Source: Burkholderiaceae bacterium
GTDB lineage: Bacteria > Pseudomonadota > Gammaproteobacteria > Burkholderiales > Burkholderiaceae_E
Assembly (NCBI GenBank): GCA_021166725.1
Contig: JAJPES010000051.1
Location: 1 to 42,635 of the forward strand
Reading direction: 5' to 3'
DNA: 42,635 nucleotides
Made by a program: the position numbers and the translations under genes. Below the pieces are notes generated by a model. The model was given only the letters and a program-made list of their open reading frames with translations. It made no database searches and was not told the DNA's origin. Positions 15,199 to 28,332 of this stretch are shown here, one piece after another (position 1 is the first letter of the stretch; every line of letters starts with the position of its first letter).

Positions 15199-16902
15199 AT
15201 GTACCTGATCGCCTTCGCCACCGACTACGACGGAACGCTCGCGCACGAGGGGCGAGTCGCCGCCGACACGATCGGCGCCCTCGAACGCCTGCGCGACAGC
15301 GGACGAAAACTGCTGATGGTCACCGGGCGCGAGCTGCCGGACCTCGAACGCGTCTTCGACCGACTGGACCTGTTCGATCTCGTCGTGGCCGAGAACGGAG
15401 CCCTGCTCCACTGGCCGCAGACACAGCAAGAACGCCTGCTCGCGGAAGAACCGCCGACCGAGCTGGTGGAAGCGCTGCGGGCACGCGGCCTATCGCCGTT
15501 GTCGATAGGGCGAGGAATCGTCGCCACCTGGGAACCCAACGAGGGCGCGGTGATCGAATGCATTCGCGATCTCGGCCTGGAGTGGCAGATCATTTTCAAC
15601 AAGGGCGCGGTGATGATCCTGCCGCCGGGGGTGAACAAGGCGACGGGCCTCTCCGCCGGCTTGTCGGAACTCGGTCTTTCCCCGCTGAACGTGGCGGCCA
15701 TCGGCGACGCCGAAAACGACTACGCCTTCCTCACCGCATGCGGCTGCTCGATCGCCGTCGCCAACGCGCTCGAATCGATCAGGAAGAGCGCCGACCTCGT
15801 GACGCGCGGCGACCACGGCGCGGGCGTGATCGAAGCGATCGACGCGATCCTCGCGGACGACTCGCAAGCGATGGCGGCGGCGGCACATCGACGGCGCATC
15901 ACGCTGGGCGAAGACGACGACGCCGGGTTGACCGTCGACGGCGGCGCAGTGCTGATCGCCGGATCGTCCGGCATCGGCAAATCGACACTGGCGACCGCGC
16001 TCCTCGAGAAGCTCGCGGCGCAGGGGTTCCAGCTCTGCGTATTCGATCCGGAGGGCGACTACGACGATCTGGACGGCGCCGTCGTACTCGGCAACGCACG
16101 CAATCCACCGGCCGGCGACGAAGTCACCGACTTCCTGCGAAGGCCGGATGCCCCTCCCCTGGTGGTCAACCTGCTCGGATTCGAAGTGCAGGACCGTCCG
16201 GGCTTCTTTCGCGAGCTCGTCGCACGGATCGGCGACCTGCGCGGCGAGTTCGCCCGGCCGCATTGGCTGCTGATCGACGAGGCGCATCACATGCTGCCCG
16301 CGCCGTCGGACGTCGCCACCGCGTCGCTGCCCGCCGAACTCGCCGCGACCATCTACGTCACCGTCCATCCCGAACAGATGGCCCGACAGGTGCTCGACAG
16401 CGTGCGAACCTTCATCGGCGTGGGCGCGCAGGCGAGCGAGGCGCTGCGCAGCTTCTGCGAGACGATCGGGCTCGACGCGCCGCCGGTTCCCGCGGGCGAT
16501 GCACGCCAGGCGGTTCTCTTCTGGCGGCGCGACGGTTCCCGCGCGCCGAGCTGGCTGCGGCCCGACCGGCCGAAGCAGGGGCACAAACGGCATACGCGCA
16601 AGTACGCCGAGGGCGAGCTGGGCGCCGACAAGAGCTTCTACTTCCGGGGCCCTGCCGGCGAGCTGAACCTGCGCGCGCAGAACCTGATGCTGTTCCTGCA
16701 ACTGGCCGACGGCGTGGACGACACGACGTGGCTCTTCCACCTTCATCGGGGCGACTACGCACGATGGTTTCGCGAGGCGATCAAGGACGACCACCTCGCC
16801 GACGAGGCCGAAAGCCTGCAGGACGGTCGGGACCCCGCACGCACGCGGGCACAGATGCGCGAAATCGTCGAACGCCGGTACACCGCGCCGGCGAAGGGAT
16901 GA
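15199..16902 (+). CDS. HAD phosphatase fused to a P-loop ATPase domain
   Basis: A 567-residue fusion. Residues 1-225 form a Cof/HAD-IIB type phosphatase with all four motifs: TDYDGT (D9, D11), VTGR (T42), K147 in GVNKATG and GDAEND (169-174). Residues 245-450 form a P-loop ATPase with Walker A GSSGIGKST (255-263) and Walker B WLLIDEAHH (D360, E361), recalling HerA/DUF87-type enzymes. A further conserved-looking C-terminal part contains FYFRGPAGELNLRAQNL and FHLHRGDYARWF. No substrate is known to me. It is encoded opposite to, and between, pyk and fba. The start lacks a strong ribosome-binding site. Confidence 0.8.
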   Translation: MYLIAFATDYDGTLAHEGRVAADTIGALERLRDSGRKLLMVTGRELPDLERVFDRLDLFDLVVAENGALLHWPQTQQERLLAEEPPTELVEALRARGLSPLSIGRGIVATWEPNEGAVIECIRDLGLEWQIIFNKGAVMILPPGVNKATGLSAGLSELGLSPLNVAAIGDAENDYAFLTACGCSIAVANALESIRKSADLVTRGDHGAGVIEAIDAILADDSQAMAAAAHRRRITLGEDDDAGLTVDGGAVLIAGSSGIGKSTLATALLEKLAAQGFQLCVFDPEGDYDDLDGAVVLGNARNPPAGDEVTDFLRRPDAPPLVVNLLGFEVQDRPGFFRELVARIGDLRGEFARPHWLLIDEAHHMLPAPSDVATASLPAELAATIYVTVHPEQMARQVLDSVRTFIGVGAQASEALRSFCETIGLDAPPVPAGDARQAVLFWRRDGSRAPSWLRPDRPKQGHKRHTRKYAEGELGADKSFYFRGPAGELNLRAQNLMLFLQLADGVDDTTWLFHLHRGDYARWFREAIKDDHLADEAESLQDGRDPARTRAQMREIVERRYTAPAKG

Positions 16903-16945: not shown

Positions 16946-18388
16946 CTACCGTCCGTGCTCGCCGACCCGCACCACCTTCAGCGTGTTCGTCCCGCCCGAC
17001 TTGCCGATCGGTTCACCGATCGTCAGCGCGATGAGATCGCCCTTCTCGACTATGCCCGCGTCGAGCAGGCGCTGCTCGGCCTCGAGCAGCAGCGCTTCGC
17101 GCTCGACGGCGTGATAGGTCATCACGATCGGGTGCACCTCGCGATACAGGCACATCCGGCGGCGACTGCGCTCCTCGGGCGTGAGCGCGTAGATCGGCAC
17201 GCCCGAATCGATGCGCGACATCCACAGCGCGGTGGAGCCCGACTGCGTGAGCGAGACCACCGCCTTCACCTTCATGTGGTGCGCCACGAAGAGCGCGCTC
17301 ATCGCGATCGCCTGGTCGATCCGCGTGAAGGTACCGTCGAGGATCTCAGCGCCGAGCGAATGCCGCTCGGAGCGATCGGCCTCTACGCACACCCGAGCCA
17401 TCGCCTCGATGGTCTCCACCGGGTAGCGGCCGGCCGCCGTCTCGGCCGACAGCATCACCGCGTCGGTTCCGTCGAGCACCGCATTGGCCACGTCCGAGAC
17501 TTCGGCGCGCGTGGGCACCGGCGACTCGATCATCGACTCCATCATCTGCGTGGCGGTGATCGTGACCTTGTTCAGGTCCTTCGCCATGCGGATCATCCGC
17601 TTCTGCAGCGCCGGCACCGAGGCGTCGCCCACCTCGACGGCGAGATCCCCGCGGGCGACCATGATGCCGTCGCTCGCCTTCAGGATCTCCTCCAGGTTGC
17701 CGATCGCCTCGTAGCGCTCGATCTTCGCGATCATCAGTGCACGGCCGCCCGCCGCCCGCACCAGTTCGCGCGCCATGTACATGTCGGCCGCGTTCTTCGG
17801 GAACGACACCGCGATGAAGTCGGCGGCGAAGCGAACGGCCGTCTTGATGTCCTCCATGTCCTTCGACGTCAGTGCCGGCGCCGACAGCCCGCCGCCCTGC
17901 CGATTGATTCCCTTGCGATTCGACAGCGTGCCGCCTTGCAGGACCGTGCAGTCGATCGTGCGCGCGTCGACGCGATCGACCCGCATCGTGACGCGACCGT
18001 CGTTCAGCAGCAGCGTGTCGCCGACGCTCACGTCGTTGACGAGTTCGGGGTAGTCGAGGCCGACGCGCTGCTGGCTGCCGAGGTCGCAGTCGATGTCGAA
18101 GACGAAACGGTCGCCGACCTCGAGCTGGATCTTGCCGTCGGCAAACTTGCCGATGCGGATCTTCGGACCCTGCAGGTCGGCGAGCACGCCCACGCTCTGG
18201 CCGATCCGGTCGCCGATCTCGCGCACGCTGGCGACGACTGCCGAGTGCTCCTCGGCGGTTCCGTGCGAGAAATTCACGCGTACGACATTGACGCCGGCAC
18301 GCAGCATGCGCTCGAGCACTTCGGGCGAGGACGATGCCGGGCCGAGCGTGGCCACGATCTTGGTGGCGCGGGGAACGGGATGGAACAT
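16946..18388 (-). CDS. pyk: Pyruvate kinase
   Basis: A 480-residue pyruvate kinase. Landmarks are ATKIVATLGPASS at the start, VNFSHGTAEEH, the active-site stretch MIAKIERYEAI, GIMVARGDLAVEVG and ITATQMMESMI. The C-terminal regulatory-type domain ends in GGTNTLKVVRVG. It converts phosphoenolpyruvate and ADP to pyruvate and ATP. The start at 18388 fits family N-termini; an upstream ATG at 18460 would add 24 Arg-rich residues and overlap the nucleotidyltransferase stop. The nearest upstream neighbour on the same strand is the HprK-related operon, 68 bp away, so read-through from that operon is possible. Confidence 0.96.
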   Translation of the reverse strand: MFHPVPRATKIVATLGPASSSPEVLERMLRAGVNVVRVNFSHGTAEEHSAVVASVREIGDRIGQSVGVLADLQGPKIRIGKFADGKIQLEVGDRFVFDIDCDLGSQQRVGLDYPELVNDVSVGDTLLLNDGRVTMRVDRVDARTIDCTVLQGGTLSNRKGINRQGGGLSAPALTSKDMEDIKTAVRFAADFIAVSFPKNAADMYMARELVRAAGGRALMIAKIERYEAIGNLEEILKASDGIMVARGDLAVEVGDASVPALQKRMIRMAKDLNKVTITATQMMESMIESPVPTRAEVSDVANAVLDGTDAVMLSAETAAGRYPVETIEAMARVCVEADRSERHSLGAEILDGTFTRIDQAIAMSALFVAHHMKVKAVVSLTQSGSTALWMSRIDSGVPIYALTPEERSRRRMCLYREVHPIVMTYHAVEREALLLEAEQRLLDAGIVEKGDLIALTIGEPIGKSGGTNTLKVVRVGEHGR

Positions 18389-18456
18389 GGAGGCGACCGG
18401 GAATGCGGCAGTGAGCGGATCGGCCGGGCGCGACGCTCGCACCCGGCGGCGGGCAT

Positions 18457-19542
18457 TCATCCTAACGCAGTGGGGCGCGGAGGACGGAACAGTTTCGTCC
18501 AGAGATGCAGCGCGAGCAGGCGCGGCGGGAAGCGGCGCGTGAAATACCGCGCTCGCAAAGCGCGCTTGGCCCAGCGGCGCGAAGCAGTCACGGGACGATC
18601 GGGAGCCGCCGGCAGCAGCGAGCGCGCCACCAGCGCGTCCATCAGCGCCGTCGTCATCCGCGAAGGCTGCGCGCGGCGGGCCGCTTCACGAGCGGAGCGC
18701 TCGGGCACGGGTGCGTCGAGCAGGCGGCGCGCGTAGCGCAGCCCGTAATGCAGCGGACGCTGCAATCCGTGACGCGCCGTTGATTCCGCGAGTCGGTCGT
18801 CGAAAGCCGGGTCGCCGGCGCTCGCGCTCAACATCGCACCGAGGTCGAGCAGGTCGCGCATCTGGTGCCACAGGTCGGAGTCCTCGAACAGGTGGCAGCA
18901 CGTGTGCAGGAGCTGGTCGTGCGGTGCCAACACACGCAGCGCAGTGCCCGGCAACCCGATCGAAGCGTCGACGAGCGCCGCAGCATCGGGGCGCAAACGG
19001 CTCGAGACGGGTAGGATCGTGTGATGCAGGTCCACCGGCAACGGGCGCTCGGGATGCATCAGCGGCGGCAACTCGTGGCTCCACTCGCGGAAGTAGCGCT
19101 CGTCGTAGTCGCTGATCTCGCCGAAGCGCCAGCCGGCCGCCCTCAGCGCAGTTTCGGCGCGCCCGATCTCCGAGGCGCGGACGAGCAGGTCCACGTCGCT
19201 GGTGAGCCGGCCGCGCCCCCAGGCAGCGTCCTGCGCGACGTACGCACTTCCCTTGAGCAGCACGAGTTCGATGCCGAGCGGGCCCAGGACCTCGGCCAGG
19301 TGCTGCAGGTTCCAGCGTGTCATCGCGATCCGGTACTCGGCGATCGTGCGCTCGCTGCGCAACTGGCGCAGGACCGGCGCCGGCAGCGCATCGAGCGCCC
19401 CGGCCGCTTCGTAGCGCACGTGCAGCAGGCTGGCGACCGAGCCGAGCCTGGCGATGCGAACGAGGCGGTCCCATTCGCCGAGTGCAGGCTGCTCGGGCTG
19501 CAACGGATCGGACAACAACGAAAGCAGGCGCTGCGCGTTCAT
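18457..19542 (-). CDS. Uncharacterised nucleotidyltransferase-family protein of the HprK-related A operon
   Basis: A 361-residue protein. The first ~90 residues are helical. A minimal nucleotidyltransferase core follows, with ELVLLKGSAY (G98, S99) and SDVDLLV (D116 and D118, the metal-binding pair). Later LPVDLHHTI and a His-containing helical segment (LAPHDQLLHTCCHLFED) match the family often filed as uncharacterised nucleotidyltransferases. The C-terminus is Arg-rich. Its ATG overlaps the kinase stop by 4 bp (19539-19542), so it is the last gene of the operon that starts at 21502. Family members occur with HprK-related kinases and PqqD-like proteins. Transfer of a nucleotide to a protein or peptide is inference. 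Confidence 0.82.
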   Translation of the reverse strand: MNAQRLLSLLSDPLQPEQPALGEWDRLVRIARLGSVASLLHVRYEAAGALDALPAPVLRQLRSERTIAEYRIAMTRWNLQHLAEVLGPLGIELVLLKGSAYVAQDAAWGRGRLTSDVDLLVRASEIGRAETALRAAGWRFGEISDYDERYFREWSHELPPLMHPERPLPVDLHHTILPVSSRLRPDAAALVDASIGLPGTALRVLAPHDQLLHTCCHLFEDSDLWHQMRDLLDLGAMLSASAGDPAFDDRLAESTARHGLQRPLHYGLRYARRLLDAPVPERSAREAARRAQPSRMTTALMDALVARSLLPAAPDRPVTASRRWAKRALRARYFTRRFPPRLLALHLWTKLFRPPRPTALG

Positions 19543-20495
19543 CGGCGCGCGGCCTCGGCCGGGAACGCGACGACTTCGGTGTCGGCAAAGAGCGCGTCGA
19601 TGCATTCGAAGGCGTCGTCGAAGCTCGAGTACCGAAGCTCGTAGATCCGGGACTGCGCGAGCAGGTTCGTCAACGCAACGAAGCCGGCCTCGCCGAGCAG
19701 CGAATAGTTGAACGCGTTGCCGGAGAGCTTGACGAATGCGCGCGCCGGCTCCACCGGCTCGAAAGCCGCCGTCGCGCCGGCCTGGTAGCGGGGAAACACG
19801 ATGAACTCGGGCCGCGCGCTGCGCTTGCGCGCCGCGACGCTCTCCGGCGTGGGCGCGAGGTGCGCCACCGTTCCCTTGTGCGTGCCCGCGATGGACGGGC
19901 CGATCGGCCGTTCGGGCCAACGCGCGGCGATGCGCTCGATCGAGTCGTTCTTCAGGCACACCGGGCGCAGCACGGGCATGGCGCTTCCGCTGGCCGGATC
20001 GAGCGCGCAGAACTCGTCACTGAGCAGCCGGTAGCCGTGGCACATGAGTGCCGCGGTCAGCGTGCTCTTGCCGACGCCGGAAAAGGCGGGCATCAGCAAC
20101 GCGCGATCGCCGCGCGCGACGATGCCCGCATGCAGCACGAGCCAGGCATGTAGACGATGGGCGATCGTCCAGTTCAGTCCCCATTCGATCAGCGGCAGGT
20201 GCATCGCCAGCGGCAGCACCTGGAATGGCGACTCGCCATCGATGAAGATCCGCGCCCAGCCTTGGCCGAACAGCGCGCGTTGCACGTGGAGCGAGACGCT
20301 GACGTCGGCGAAGCCTGAGTCGGGTTCGATCGGGAAGGCGCCGTACAACGTACGCATTGCCTCGGCATGCGCAAGGTGCGTCGAATGGAACCGGGCAGCG
20401 CAGGCGCCCAGGTCGAGTGCCACGCCCGGTCCGGCGAGCCTTTCGAGCAGCGACGCCGGCGAGAGATCGGCGACGGTCGGCGCGCCGCGCATCAT
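19539..20495 (-). CDS. HprK-related kinase A
   Basis: A 318-residue protein with an HPr-kinase-like C-terminal half. LHAGIVARGDRALLMPAFSG (121-140) leads into the P-loop SGVGKST (139-145), followed by GYRLLSDE with D160 and E161. This matches the HprK layout of a His, a strand and a P-loop. The N-terminal ~110 residues are specific to the HprK-related branch and differ from HprK/P itself. No HPr or other PTS gene is present nearby. The preceding PqqD-like gene ends 4 bp upstream, and the following nucleotidyltransferase overlaps by 4 bp. ATG 20495 was chosen over a TTG at 20528, which would overlap the PqqD gene. The true substrate is unknown. Confidence 0.88.
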   Translation of the reverse strand: MMRGAPTVADLSPASLLERLAGPGVALDLGACAARFHSTHLAHAEAMRTLYGAFPIEPDSGFADVSVSLHVQRALFGQGWARIFIDGESPFQVLPLAMHLPLIEWGLNWTIAHRLHAWLVLHAGIVARGDRALLMPAFSGVGKSTLTAALMCHGYRLLSDEFCALDPASGSAMPVLRPVCLKNDSIERIAARWPERPIGPSIAGTHKGTVAHLAPTPESVAARKRSARPEFIVFPRYQAGATAAFEPVEPARAFVKLSGNAFNYSLLGEAGFVALTNLLAQSRIYELRYSSFDDAFECIDALFADTEVVAFPAEAARR

Positions 20496-20499
20496 GGAC

Positions 20500-20814
20500 T
20501 CAATGCTCGACGCAAGCCGGCGTGTCAACGAACTCGATCAGCTCGCAGCCATGCAACTCGGAGAGCGCCTTGTCGACGAGCGCGCGCGCCTCGTCGGCCG
20601 GAAAGCTGGAATCGGCGAGGTCGAGCGCGTCGACAAGCGCGACCACGGGCTGCGCCCCTCGCTCGGCGAACAGCGTGAGCAGCATCGCGGCTGCGCCGCC
20701 GACGATGTGCGTGCGCCACGAGCGGGGTTCGAACACAGCGAGGGAGTCGGCGGCCAGGGGACGCCGGCGCAAGCCCGCGCGCGCGCGGGCATATAGCGGC
20801 GCGTCGCCGCGCAT
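20500..20814 (-). CDS. PqqD-like protein of the HprK-related A system (RiPP recognition element type)
   Basis: A 104-residue protein with a PqqD-like winged-helix pattern: LAVFEPRSWRTHIVGGAAAMLLTLFA, a short loop, then VVALVDALD and DEARALVDKALSELHGCELIEF at the C-terminus. PqqD-like domains bind leader peptides and present them to modifying enzymes. In HprK-related A gene sets a PqqD-type chaperone is a regular member. It starts 7 bp after the stop of the Tat-exported protein and ends 4 bp before the kinase ATG. The N-terminus is Arg-rich. Sequence similarity in this family is always weak, so the call depends partly on context. Confidence 0.75.
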   Translation of the reverse strand: MRGDAPLYARARAGLRRRPLAADSLAVFEPRSWRTHIVGGAAAMLLTLFAERGAQPVVALVDALDLADSSFPADEARALVDKALSELHGCELIEFVDTPACVEH

Positions 20815-20821
20815 CCCGCTA

Positions 20822-21502
20822 TCAGCCCAGGCCGAGCACGCGCTTGATGTACGCGCCGATGCCGTCCCAACCGCCGGTGTAGCGGGCGACGCCCGGATGC
20901 AGCGAATGGAAGCAGCCGACCGAAGTGGCGACGCCGCCGATGGCCTCGGGTTCCCAGCTGTAGCCCAGCGGTTCGCCCGTCTTCGGGTCGACCTTGATCA
21001 GCGCCCAGCGCTTCTCGATCGGTGAGCCCTGCGCATTCGAGGTGTTCCAGTCGCCGCTGAACGATGCGTCCTTGCCGATGGCGCCGCCGTCACCGAAGCT
21101 CACGCGGGGCGTGCTCTTGGCCGACGCAATCATCGGACCGCCGCCTACGCCGCCGTCCACCCGCCAGAAGGTGGTGCGATCGGTGCCGAGCACGTACTTG
21201 CCCTCGATGAGCGTGTCCTGCGGCCCGTTGCCATTGAAGTCGATCTTGTGCAGCTCCAGGATGTCGACCTGCGCGCGCACCCATTCATCGGCATCGGGCG
21301 ACGTGGCGAGCTTCTCGGCCGCGTCGGCACGAGCTGCATCTGCGGCGTCCAGCCCCCTCTCGGTGCACAGCATCGATGCGGCGAACGAAGCACCGGGTCT
21401 GAGAGTCAACACCATCGGAGCCGCCGCACCCAGGCGCAACAGGTTGCGTCGGCGCGCTTCGTGCTGCCCTTGCGACGCGTTGGTCTCGCTCGAATTTTTC
21501 AT
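20822..21502 (-). CDS. Tat-type exported protein of unknown function, first gene of the HprK-related A operon
   Basis: A 226-residue protein. The N-terminus has a twin-arginine-like signal: RRRNLLRLG at 17-25, then a hydrophobic stretch APMVLTL, and a likely cleavage after ASFA at about 41. The mature part (about 185 residues) has two cysteines (C46, C197), a D-x-N-x-N-G loop (IDFNGNGPQ, 87-95) that resembles a calcium-binding loop, and Gly-rich stretches. I do not recognise the family. Its position as first gene, 7 bp before a PqqD-like protein, makes it a candidate substrate or partner of the kinase and nucleotidyltransferase. GAGGCGAAG precedes ATG 21502. Confidence 0.78.
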   Translation of the reverse strand: MKNSSETNASQGQHEARRRNLLRLGAAAPMVLTLRPGASFAASMLCTERGLDAADAARADAAEKLATSPDADEWVRAQVDILELHKIDFNGNGPQDTLIEGKYVLGTDRTTFWRVDGGVGGGPMIASAKSTPRVSFGDGGAIGKDASFSGDWNTSNAQGSPIEKRWALIKVDPKTGEPLGYSWEPEAIGGVATSVGCFHSLHPGVARYTGGWDGIGAYIKRVLGLG

Positions 21503-21513
21503 TGCTTCGCCTC

Positions 21514-21534
21514 GGGAATCCCCTGATAATTCCC
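21514..21534 (-). promoter_or_regulatory. Inverted repeat next to the ribosome-binding site of the exported protein
   Basis: GGGAAT (21514-21519) and ATTCCC (21529-21534) form a 6-bp perfect inverted repeat with a 9-base loop. In the minus-strand transcript it ends at the base before the GAGG of the 21502 gene, so it could affect translation start or bind a protein. The function is unproven. Confidence 0.35.
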
Positions 21535-21633
21535 TTGTGACAGTGCCGGATTAGGCGCGTGCCCCACTGAGGAACTCGCACACAAACCCCGCGTTCCGCC
21601 TGTCTCGAAAGGAACCGACTGTCCTATCATCCC

Positions 21634-21648
21634 TGCAAGTATCGTGCC
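21634..21648 (-). promoter_or_regulatory. Sigma-54 (RpoN) promoter of the HprK-related A operon
   Basis: On the minus strand the sequence is GGCACGATACTTGCA. It matches the -24/-12 consensus (GGCACG-N4-TTGCA) in every fixed position, including the required GG-N10-GC spacing; only the two bases before GG differ. The predicted transcription start is near 21623, giving a leader of about 120 bases before ATG 21502. The 237-bp gap 21503-21739 is visibly richer in A+T than its surroundings, as expected for a regulatory region. An upstream activator site is expected within 21650-21739 but I could not identify one. Confidence 0.72.
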
Positions 21649-21739
21649 CTGCGCACGCAAGGATTTGATTTGCAACAAAGGGATGAGAACCCAGCCTGCC
21701 CTGAGCAAGCGTTGTAAATTTCTCCGACGCCCAACTGTA

Positions 21740-22918
21740 TCAGGCGCGTTGCTCGAGCGCCTCAACGGCCGGTAGCGTCCGCCCCTCCAGAAACTCCAGG
21801 AACGCACCACCGCCGGTCGAGATGTAGTCGACGCGGTCGGCTACGCCGAAGCGCGAAATCGCAGCTACCGTGTCGCCGCCGCCGGCGATCGAATAGGCAT
21901 CCGATTGCCCGACGGCCTCGGCAACCGTGCGAGTGCCCTGCGCGAAAGCATCGAACTCGAACACGCCGACCGGGCCGTTCCAGACGATGGTGCCCGCCTG
22001 CTGCAGGAAGCCGGCCAGTGTTGCCGCCGTGCGCGGCCCGATGTCGAGAATCAGGTCGTCGTCGGCCACCTGCTGCACGGGCTTCGTAACCCCCCGCGCG
22101 GTGGCCGAAAACTCCTTCGCGCAGACGACATCTTCGGGAATCGGCACCGCGGCGCCGCGCGCGGACATCGCATCGAGCACCGCCCGCGCTTCGCCGGCCA
22201 TCTCGCGCTCGGCCAGCGAGCGACCGATCGGCAGACCCGCGGCCAACAGGAAGGTGTTGGCGATTCCGCCGCCGACGATCAACTGATCGACCTTCGAAGC
22301 GAGCGCCTGCAGGATCGACAGTTTGGTGGAGACCTTGGCGCCGCCGACGATGGCCACCAGCGGGCGACGCGGCGAACCCAGCGCGCGCCCCAACGCGTCG
22401 AGCTCGGCCGCCATCAACGGGCCGGCGCAGGCGATCGGCGCTACGAGCGCGAGCGCGTGCGTGGTCGCCTCGGCACGATGCGCGGTGCCGAAGGCATCGT
22501 TGACGTAGACGTCGCACAGCGCCGCCATCCTGCGCGCCAGGCCGGGATCGTCGCTCTTCTCGCCGACGTTGCAGCGGCAGTTCTCGAGCAGCACCACCTC
22601 GCCCGCGCCCACCGGGAAGTCGCCGTCGACCCAGTCGCTGACGAGACGCACTTCGCGTCCGAGCAGCTCCGCGAGCCGCGCAGCAACCGGTGCCAGCGAA
22701 TCCTGCGGGCGCACGACGCCCTCCCTCGGCCGCCCGAGATGCGACGTGACCATCAACGCCGCGCCCATCCGCAGGCAGTGCTCGATGGCGGGCAGCGACG
22801 CGCGGATGCGGGTGTCGTCCGTGATGCGCAGCGCATCGTCCTGCGGCACGTTGAGATCGGCGCGAATGAACACGCGCTTGCCGGCAACGTCGACTTCGTC
22901 CAGGCGTCGGAAATTCAT
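21740..22918 (-). CDS. pgk: Phosphoglycerate kinase
   Basis: A 392-residue enzyme of normal length. Landmarks are [15 protein letters not shown] (substrate-binding start), [50 protein letters not shown] and the nucleotide-binding [12 protein letters not shown]. It transfers phosphate between 1,3-bisphosphoglycerate and ADP. GGAGG precedes ATG 22918. Upstream by 54 bp is an unknown 106-residue gene and then gap, all on the same strand. Transcription probably ends after pgk, because a sigma-54 promoter for the next operon begins about 90 bp downstream. Confidence 0.97.
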
Positions 22919-22972
22919 GCGATTGCCTCCAGGTGCGCGCGCCGTGCGCATCGTGGCCCGCAAGGGCGCGCT

Positions 22973-26750: not shown

Positions 26751-26931
26751 GCATCCCGCGCAAGGCCCATCGAGCGTGCGCGAAGGCTTTCCCGGAGCGT
26801 CCCGGAAGCGTCGGCGCCGCGGAGCACCCGTCCGCAGCGACCGCATCGACGCGCATCAGCCGTCGATGCATCCGGCGCGTCCGGGGGTCTTGGGGTCTTC
26901 ACCCTCTTCGGAGGGACTGGGTTGGAACGAA

Positions 26932-28332
26932 ATGCAGGGACTGCACCTCACTGCCGATCTGTACGGCTGCCGCTGCGACGCGTCGTTGCTTACCGATGCC
27001 GCAAGGCTCGCCGAAGTGTGCCGCGCGGCTGTGCGCAAGGCCGAACTCACGCTGGTCGACGAGAAGTTCTTTACTTTTCCCGATTACCAGGGTGAGCCGG
27101 GCGGCGTCACCGGGGCGGTCCTGCTCGCCGAGTCGCACGTCGCGGTCCACACCTGGCCCGAGCGCTCCGGCGTCACGCTCGATGTCTACGTCTGCAATTT
27201 CTCGACCGACAATTCATCGAAGGCCGAGCAGTTGCTCGACGACCTCATCGTGGCGTTCGCGCCGCGCCAGCAGAACACCAATCGAATCCTGCGCGGCTCG
27301 GAAGACCCCGATTCGGCCGAAGGCGAGTTGCTGCTGGAATGGCTGAACGCCGACAGCGCGTTCGGCTTTCGCGCGGCGCGCCGCCTCGAAACCGTTCGCA
27401 CCCCGTACCAGACGCTCGAGGTGTTCGACACGCCGCAGTGGGGCAAGCTCTTTCGCCTGGACGGCTGCTACATGACGTCCGAACGCGACGAGTTCTTCTA
27501 CCACGAGGCGATCACCCACCCGGCTGCGCTCGCCCACCCCGGCCCGGCGAGCGCGCTGGTGATCGGCGGTGGCGACGGCGGCTCCACGGAGGAGCTGCTC
27601 AAGCATCCTTCGATGCAACGCGTCGTGCTGGCCGAACTGGATGCCGAGGTGATCCGCGTCGCACGCGAGCACCTGCAGGAAGTGCACCGCGGCGCCTTCG
27701 ACGACCCGCGCGTCGAGTTGCGGATCGGCGATGGCTGGCAAACCGTCGAGGCGCTGGCGCGCGAAGCGGAGACGCTCGGGCACAGCGCCCAGGCACTCGG
27801 GCACAGCGCCCAGACGCTCGCGCACAGCGCCCAGACGCTCGCGCACAGCGCTCAGGCACTCGCGCACAGCGCTCGGCGCTTCGACCTCGTCGTGCTCGAT
27901 CTCACCGATCCCGACACGCCGGCGCACCGGCTGTACACGGCGGATTTCTTCCGCCTGCTCGGGCGCGTGATGAACCCGGGCGCTGCGGTCACGCTGCACA
28001 TCGGCTCGCCGCTGTATCGTCCCGACCTGGTCGGCCAGTTGCTGCGCGAGCTCGCAACCGTGTTCGCCATCGTCCGCCCGCTCGGACTGTACGTGCCGTT
28101 GTACGGCGCGTACTGGGGATTGTGCTGCGCATCCAACACGCTCGATCCGCTGTCGCTCGAACCCGAGGCGGCCGAGCGACGGCTGGCCGAGCGCGGCATC
28201 GGCGACCTGCGCTACTACAACGGCGACACGCATCGCGCACTGTTCGCGCTGCCGAACTTCTATCGCGAGCTGCTTCCCGGCAAGACCGGGGGTCGGGGCG
28301 CCACTGTCATCGAACTGGCACACGCGTCCTGA
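26932..28332 (+). CDS. S-adenosylmethionine decarboxylase / spermidine synthase fusion
   Basis: A 466-residue fusion. Residues 1-122 are a bacterial SpeD (AdoMet decarboxylase, short type), with the cleavage-site serine S68 in AESHVAVHTWPE that becomes the pyruvoyl group. Residues 140-460 are an aminopropyltransferase (SpeE) with the binding motif GGGDGG at 212-217 and the catalytic loop LDLTDPDTPA (D323). The two steps, decarboxylation of AdoMet and transfer of aminopropyl to putrescine, would be joined in one cytosolic protein. A 35-residue repeat (282-316) is inserted just before the catalytic loop. ATG 26932 has GGAACGAA upstream and matches SpeD N-termini; in-frame upstream ATGs lack a ribosome-binding site. 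Confidence 0.9.
   Translation: MQGLHLTADLYGCRCDASLLTDAARLAEVCRAAVRKAELTLVDEKFFTFPDYQGEPGGVTGAVLLAESHVAVHTWPERSGVTLDVYVCNFSTDNSSKAEQLLDDLIVAFAPRQQNTNRILRGSEDPDSAEGELLLEWLNADSAFGFRAARRLETVRTPYQTLEVFDTPQWGKLFRLDGCYMTSERDEFFYHEAITHPAALAHPGPASALVIGGGDGGSTEELLKHPSMQRVVLAELDAEVIRVAREHLQEVHRGAFDDPRVELRIGDGWQTVEALAREAETLGHSAQALGHSAQTLAHSAQTLAHSAQALAHSARRFDLVVLDLTDPDTPAHRLYTADFFRLLGRVMNPGAAVTLHIGSPLYRPDLVGQLLRELATVFAIVRPLGLYVPLYGAYWGLCCASNTLDPLSLEPEAAERRLAERGIGDLRYYNGDTHRALFALPNFYRELLPGKTGGRGATVIELAHAS
27775..27879 (+). repeat. Five-unit 21-bp tandem repeat inside speDE
   Basis: Five adjacent 21-bp units starting CTCG(G/C)GCACAGCGC encode heptads of the form L-(G/A)-H-S-A-(Q/R)-x (LGHSAQA, LGHSAQT, LAHSAQT, LAHSAQA, LAHSARR). 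The unit length keeps the reading frame. The repeat lies between VEALAREAET and RFDLVVLDLTD, where spermidine synthases normally have only a short link. Confidence 0.95.

Follow-up and report, generated by a model that had tools for sequence, protein, structure and literature searches.

A candidate protein-modification cassette of the HPr-rel-A system with an exported protein as its predicted substrate

What is the target of an HprK-related kinase that is encoded together with a PqqD-like adapter, a nucleotidyltransferase (NTase) and a protein with an export signal? The question is raised by four adjoining genes at 18457-21502 (-) in a stretch of 42,635 nucleotides from a Burkholderiaceae bacterium (assembly GCA_021166725.1, contig JAJPES010000051.1, positions 1 to 42,635 of the forward strand), which is called the window below. 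Comparative analysis leads us to predict, with moderate confidence, that the four genes form a protein-modification cassette with the exported protein as its substrate. The kinase and the adapter belong to the HPr-rel-A system already named in NCBIfam; that the exported gene belongs to this system across the phylum was newly seen here. The features concerned are as follows.

20822-21502 (-): exported protein of 226 aa, type I, with a twin-arginine (RR) signal at R18 R19; proposed substrate, with Ser200 in C197-F-H-S-L as the proposed modified residue
20904-20906 (-): codon for the invariant Ser200 of the exported protein, placed by open reading frame (ORF) coordinates and alignment
20500-20814 (-): PqqD-like adapter matching TIGR04353; proposed leader-binding RRE, the recognition element of ribosomally synthesized and post-translationally modified peptides (RiPPs)
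19539-20495 (-): HprK-related kinase A of PEPCK/HprK-like fold, with ATG at 20495, matching TIGR04352
18457-19542 (-): NTase family protein matching PF14907

The four genes and the signal of the exported proteins

A first-pass annotation had described four minus-strand genes separated by gaps of 7 and 4 bp and one overlap of 4 bp, and the ORF coordinates agree with it: the exported gene is followed after 7 bp by the adapter gene and after another 4 bp by the kinase gene, whose stop is overlapped by the NTase gene over 4 bp (ATGA). The four genes would thus make up one transcript and act together. The range 18300-22000 yielded neither a sigma-70-type promoter nor an intrinsic terminator, and the guanine-cytosine content of the cassette resembles that of its surroundings.

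The assignments to a P-loop kinase, a PqqD-like protein and a nucleotidyltransferase were also upheld, as each protein scored above the cutoff of its family model: 306.7 bits for the kinase against TIGR04352 (cutoff 200), 38.3 bits for the adapter, which adjoins the kinase at 4 bp, against TIGR04353 (cutoff 35) and 163 bits for the NTase against PF14907 (cutoff 31.2). The P-loop reads SGVGKST, as had been noted. Its glycines and lysine, whose conservation the annotation had singled out for a check, were unchanged in all 20 aligned sequences, together with a His and an Asp-Glu pair; likewise, K97, G98, D116 and D118 of the NTase (the G and D-x-D elements) were unchanged in 11 of 11 aligned sequences. 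A likeness to HprK appeared in a profile comparison, where 1jb1 was matched weakly (E 0.0016) with the His, the P-loop and the acidic pair aligned. However, the kinase remained far under the curated cutoffs of the HPr kinase/phosphorylase models, with 13.4 bits for PF07475 (cutoff 33.3) and 11.8 bits for TIGR00679 (cutoff 240). In a fold comparison of the kinase model (VIA-align), HprK entries were not among the 50 matches listed, which does not exclude them. A search of the kinase against phages gave no match.

All 17 adapter relatives matched TIGR04353 and six of them matched PF05402; the window adapter itself had no Pfam match. The adapter profile retrieved from the PDB sequences designed helical proteins, MarR-type regulators and other chance matches, none of them credible. 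Single-protein searches of the same sequences gave no match for the kinase or the exported protein and one chance match for the NTase. The likeness to HPr-rel-A lies in the kinase and adapter scores, both above the curated cutoffs, and in the use of these names by the NCBI annotation pipeline PGAP in a Sphingomonas record. On the other hand, we saw no function or substrate stated for the system in NCBIfam, and the exported gene has no family there, being annotated as 'hypothetical protein'.

The exported protein of the window matched nothing in Pfam or NCBIfam, and a scan of nine exported proteins gave no score above a cutoff in either. The claim of a Tat-like signal holds as far as the sequence can be read: an RR motif and a hydrophobic stretch are there, and a TatC gene is present in the window genome. 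Residues R18, R19, P29, T33, C46, D72, W74, R76, G101, C197 and S200 were unchanged in 12 aligned relatives. In a wider set of 110 exported proteins, RRx[FLVIM] occurred in 109, the profile seeds having been chosen with the help of RR or RK/KR, and Thr or Ser lay within the hydrophobic stretch in 102.

Beyond the signal, the mature parts are of two types that are unrelated to each other, and both contain an invariant serine. Type I has it close to the C terminus, within [CAS]-x-x-S-[hydrophobic]; in type II it comes just after the signal. The window motif CFHSL, with Ser200, stands 30 residues before the end, and the relative from genome G010 of the same genus has CAASL. In profile comparisons, the alignment of the window family to a second type I family spanned both the signal and the C-terminal motif (probability 99.2), and its alignment to type II was confined to 26 signal residues (probability 80.5). 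The signal region is thus common to otherwise unrelated mature proteins, which is leader-like and amounts to a RiPP-like architecture.

The serine was invariant in all members of the four type I families (16/16 in the window family, then 17/17, 9/9 and 12/12), and no other serine was invariant in the 16- and 17-member families. For type II it was found in 53 of 53 proteins, with a second serine three residues on in 52. Of the 110 proteins, 39 had the strict pattern C[WFYH]xS[FLIVM] among their last 35 residues, compared to a mean of 0.16 and a maximum of 2 in 300 shuffles, and none had it elsewhere in the mature part. Type II proteins are generally without the C-terminal motif, and the matches seen in some of their tails were taken as chance and left out.

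Linkage of the exported gene to the kinase

The kinase family was detected in 19 of 61 relatives (14 above cutoff), in 68 of 399 genomes of the order and in 64 of 398 genomes of a phylum sample (61 above cutoff). We examined 116 kinase loci with 15,377 ORFs of at least 40 aa; three genomes contributed two loci each, and one contig scan yielded only three loci. Kinase, NTase and adapter were sought by iterative profiles. For the signals, a hydropathy filter was too strict (72 of 116 upstream, with the window itself missed), and a profile was used instead, built from 73 seed ORFs that lie upstream of the adapter and were chosen with the help of RR or RK/KR.

All 116 loci had the kinase; the NTase was detected at 111 of them and the adapter at 103. 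Matches to the signal profile were found in 102 loci, directly upstream of the adapter in 94 and elsewhere in or beside the cassette in eight, and beyond the cassette surroundings there were none among the 15,377 ORFs. At seven additional loci the exported gene was read by eye. The annotation had proposed looking for homologues of the exported gene beside the kinase in other genomes, and genes with the same signal do adjoin the kinase in most loci examined.

Searches of the 399 genomes started from the exported proteins as well. The window-type profile matched at 14 places, one of them by the signal alone, and all 14 were within 3.5 kb of a kinase. The type II profile matched at 49 places, of which 45 were beside a kinase and four were domain matches without the signal. 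The latter are a separate observation: the type II mature domain (TPGYWK...LLNA) occurs inside ORFs of 1046-2888 aa that have no RR signal (G122:C22, G101:C65, G141:C33 and G215:C43). In two cassettes from named plasmid records the exported gene, again a 'hypothetical protein', encodes the signal, followed by the type I motif in Sphingomonas and the type II motif in Vibrio.

That the exported gene is an accidental neighbour of the kinase is therefore scarcely credible. The six of 116 loci in which no exported gene was found would speak for it; 102 loci by profile plus seven by eye, the exported gene in both named plasmid cassettes and the 14 of 14 window-type matches beside a kinase speak against it, and we rejected it by synteny.

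Kinases and exported proteins also vary together. A quick tree was built of 115 kinases with 108 labelled rows, 27 of the labels having been set by hand before the tree. The type of the exported protein changed only twice over the 108 labelled rows, compared to a mean of about 37 changes when labels were shuffled. Distances between kinases correlated with those between exported proteins in the window family (r 0.81, 14 rows) and in type II (r 0.63, 53 rows), with none of 2000 permutations as high. Common descent accounts for part of this co-variation. The window genome has a second HPr-rel-A cassette (L003, G000:C16) on another contig, with an exported protein of another type I subfamily, and each of its two exported proteins goes with its own kinase clade. 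Elsewhere, locus L038 combines one adapter with two tandem type I exported genes upstream.

Among 64 flank genes at other loci we found matches to the sugar transferase of the XrtA/PEP-CTERM system (7), nucleotide-sugar dehydrogenase (6) and asparagine synthase (4), and also glutamyl-tRNA reductase (7) and glycine dehydrogenase (5). Counted without a background, these matches give no more than a hint of a surface role.

Proposed mechanism, precedents and rival readings

The closest working precedents are the tailoring trios of lasso peptides and of linear polyphosphorylated peptides (LPP) of Bacillota; what follows about them is taken from excerpts of the cited papers. In these systems a conserved serine receives one or more phosphates from an HprK-like kinase; it is located at the C terminus in paeninodin (PMC9266682) and at core position 3 in Bsf (PMC10368454) and LPP (PMC13381572), positions that parallel types I and II here. 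The RRE speeds phosphorylation in Bsf (PMC10368454). In pseudomycoidin, the NTase PsmN was linked to a hexose on the phosphoserine, and its deletion removed the hexose (PMC9266682). The paeninodin, pseudomycoidin and Bsf systems, with a kinase acting on a conserved Ser, an RRE and an NTase (PMC9266682, PMC10368454), thus correspond to the kinase, putative RRE and NTase of the window. They differ in that the lasso kinases have a His-Lys-Asp-Asp motif (PMC9266682, PMC10368454), while the acidic pair here is Asp-Glu; the four window genes match neither the asparagine-synthase-like cyclase nor the B2 protease, and what is proposed to be modified is an exported protein, about 110-270 residues long from the RR onwards. 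A plasmid relative of the window NTase is encoded near PqqD and lasso B2 genes.

The LPP systems have an HprK-like kinase, a discrete RRE and an NTP transferase, to which the kinase, the putative RRE and the NTase of the window correspond, and their precursors of 35-200 aa, with a conserved N terminus and a variable C terminus, undergo serine (poly)phosphorylation (PMC13381572). They also have an SpI-like peptidase and an MsbA-like exporter of their own and a YxxPxVL leader motif (PMC13381572), whereas no peptidase or exporter of these kinds is encoded by the four genes here, and the exported protein carries an RR export signal at its N terminus. The annotation had stated that no known RiPP gene is near. 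No cyclase or protease is found among the four genes, which agrees with that statement; TIGR04353, however, is annotated as a PqqD family peptide chaperone, which does not.

Beside what was computed (the gene set, synteny, catalytic residues, shared signal, invariant serine and co-variation), we infer adapter binding, phosphorylation, an NTase step, the order of these steps and the use of Tat. The RR signal would double as a RiPP-like leader, which the PqqD-like adapter would bind and present. The kinase would then phosphorylate the invariant serine, Ser200 in the window, once or several times, and the PF14907 enzyme would add a nucleotidyl or sugar group to the phosphoserine. Export, probably by Tat, would follow, with signal peptidase removing the leader. 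Adapter-guided phosphorylation, extension by the NTase and export are proposed by analogy with the same trio in the lasso, Bsf and LPP systems. The annotation had claimed that a protein or peptide is phosphorylated or nucleotidylated before or during export. This claim is partly supported: phosphate transfer to the protein before export is the reading best supported by the sequences.

Several observations weigh against the proposal. The adapter escaped the profile in 13 of 116 loci, including seven of one family (L152-L158) in which the kinase and the NTase are kept, six of the seven with the exported gene read or detected, and it is not annotated in the Vibrio plasmid cassette. The loci without an exported gene found are L146, L147, L154, L169 and, below cutoff, L170 and L171. 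The count of signal matches upstream of the adapter arose partly by construction, since the seeds had been chosen for that place. The 9- and 12-member type I families each hold two other invariant serines. Lasso and LPP leaders have a [Y/W]xxP motif, which is missing from the signal here; the window reads A-A-A-P29. Finally, deletion of lppN, the NTase gene, gave no detectable change in a heterologous LPP host (PMC13381572).

The last observation bears on a narrower alternative, namely that the exported protein is phosphorylated as proposed and the NTase works elsewhere or performs no second step on the phosphoserine. The absence of a detected NTase from five of 116 loci fits this too, but the NTase accompanies the kinase in the other 111, and hexose was lost from pseudomycoidin on PsmN deletion (PMC9266682), so we rate this alternative as rather improbable. 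It is also unlikely, to a lesser degree, that the kinase and NTase act on another target, such as a small molecule or a glycan precursor, with the exported protein as a surface partner and not the substrate. Three points argue against such a target: 103 of 116 loci encode an adapter from a family of peptide chaperones, kinase and exported types co-vary, and, in the excerpts cited above, the known HprK-like kinases encoded beside an RRE and an NTase phosphorylate peptides.

A further alternative concerns the role and is compatible with the mechanism: the modified exported protein could be a toxin or bacteriocin of bacterial competition. This would explain the patchy spread (68 of 399 genomes) and the fast change of the exported protein, which is 56% identical between two genomes of the genus in which pyk is 97% identical. 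Against it, no fifth gene that might confer immunity lies between pgk and pyk and no toxin family was matched, and we regard a toxin as very unlikely.

The pgk-pyk site and the wider meaning

The neighbours of the cassette are pgk (21740-22963) on one side, followed by gap, and pyk (16946-18460) on the other, followed by fba. As called mechanically, the pyk ORF shares 4 bp with the end of the NTase gene. Translation of pyk probably begins about 70 bp further downstream, because pyk matches begin inside this ORF, at residue 25 in G010 and at residues 5-24 in the genus, one fragment aside. Among 18 genomes of the genus, the cassette was found between pgk and pyk in two, the window genome (G000) and G010. 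The pgk and pyk matches were at most about 200 bp apart in six genomes (G003, G006, G008, G011, G012, G013), other DNA of 0.95-11.4 kb lay between them in six (G002, G005, G009, G014, G015, G016), and the pair was not readable in four (G001, G004, G007, G017). No cassette remnant was found by tblastn in 12 pgk-pyk stretches from 12 other genomes of the genus. With the cassette there in two of 18 genomes and no remnants, a link to glycolysis by way of its position is not supported. The gap is a site of varied inserts (L177-L179, L181, L187, L188), two of which (L177, L179) hold, as judged by eye, ORFs resembling ABC transporters and regulators.

We compared G000 and G010 gene by gene. The exported protein, 56% identical, had a ratio of nonsynonymous to synonymous change (dN/dS) of 0.56, followed by the adapter, kinase and NTase (62-75%, dN/dS 0.23-0.31), pgk (87%, 0.14) and gap, pyk and fba (97-98%, 0.03-0.06). 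The evolution of the cassette is thus fast but constrained. Synonymous distances to the G010 cassette (L043) were 0.66-1.26, compared to 0.25-0.56 in the flanks.

Elsewhere in the window, a gene beside fba (15199-16902, +) encodes a protein that combines a HAD-IIB phosphatase part with a HerA/DUF87-like P-loop part. The translation of the ORF at 26776-28332 (+), which we take to be spermidine-synthase-like, has a repeated H-S-A-Q-[AT]-L-[AG] stretch.

In the open-licence literature searched, we found no papers on TIGR04352, TIGR04353, HPr-rel-A or PF14907 and no description of the exported substrate family, the invariant serine or the reading of the signal as a leader. A substrate and a modified residue, both of them likely, and a bench precedent can now be given to a named system without a stated function, which is present in about one in six genomes of both the order and the phylum samples. 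We suggest tentatively that an export signal serves as a RiPP leader widely in proteobacteria, and that whole secreted domains receive (poly)phosphoserine, to which the NTase would attach a sugar or nucleotide, possibly tying the protein to a surface polysaccharide. If the proposed mechanism is true, leader-guided tailoring by a kinase and an NTase would extend from small peptides to exported proteins.

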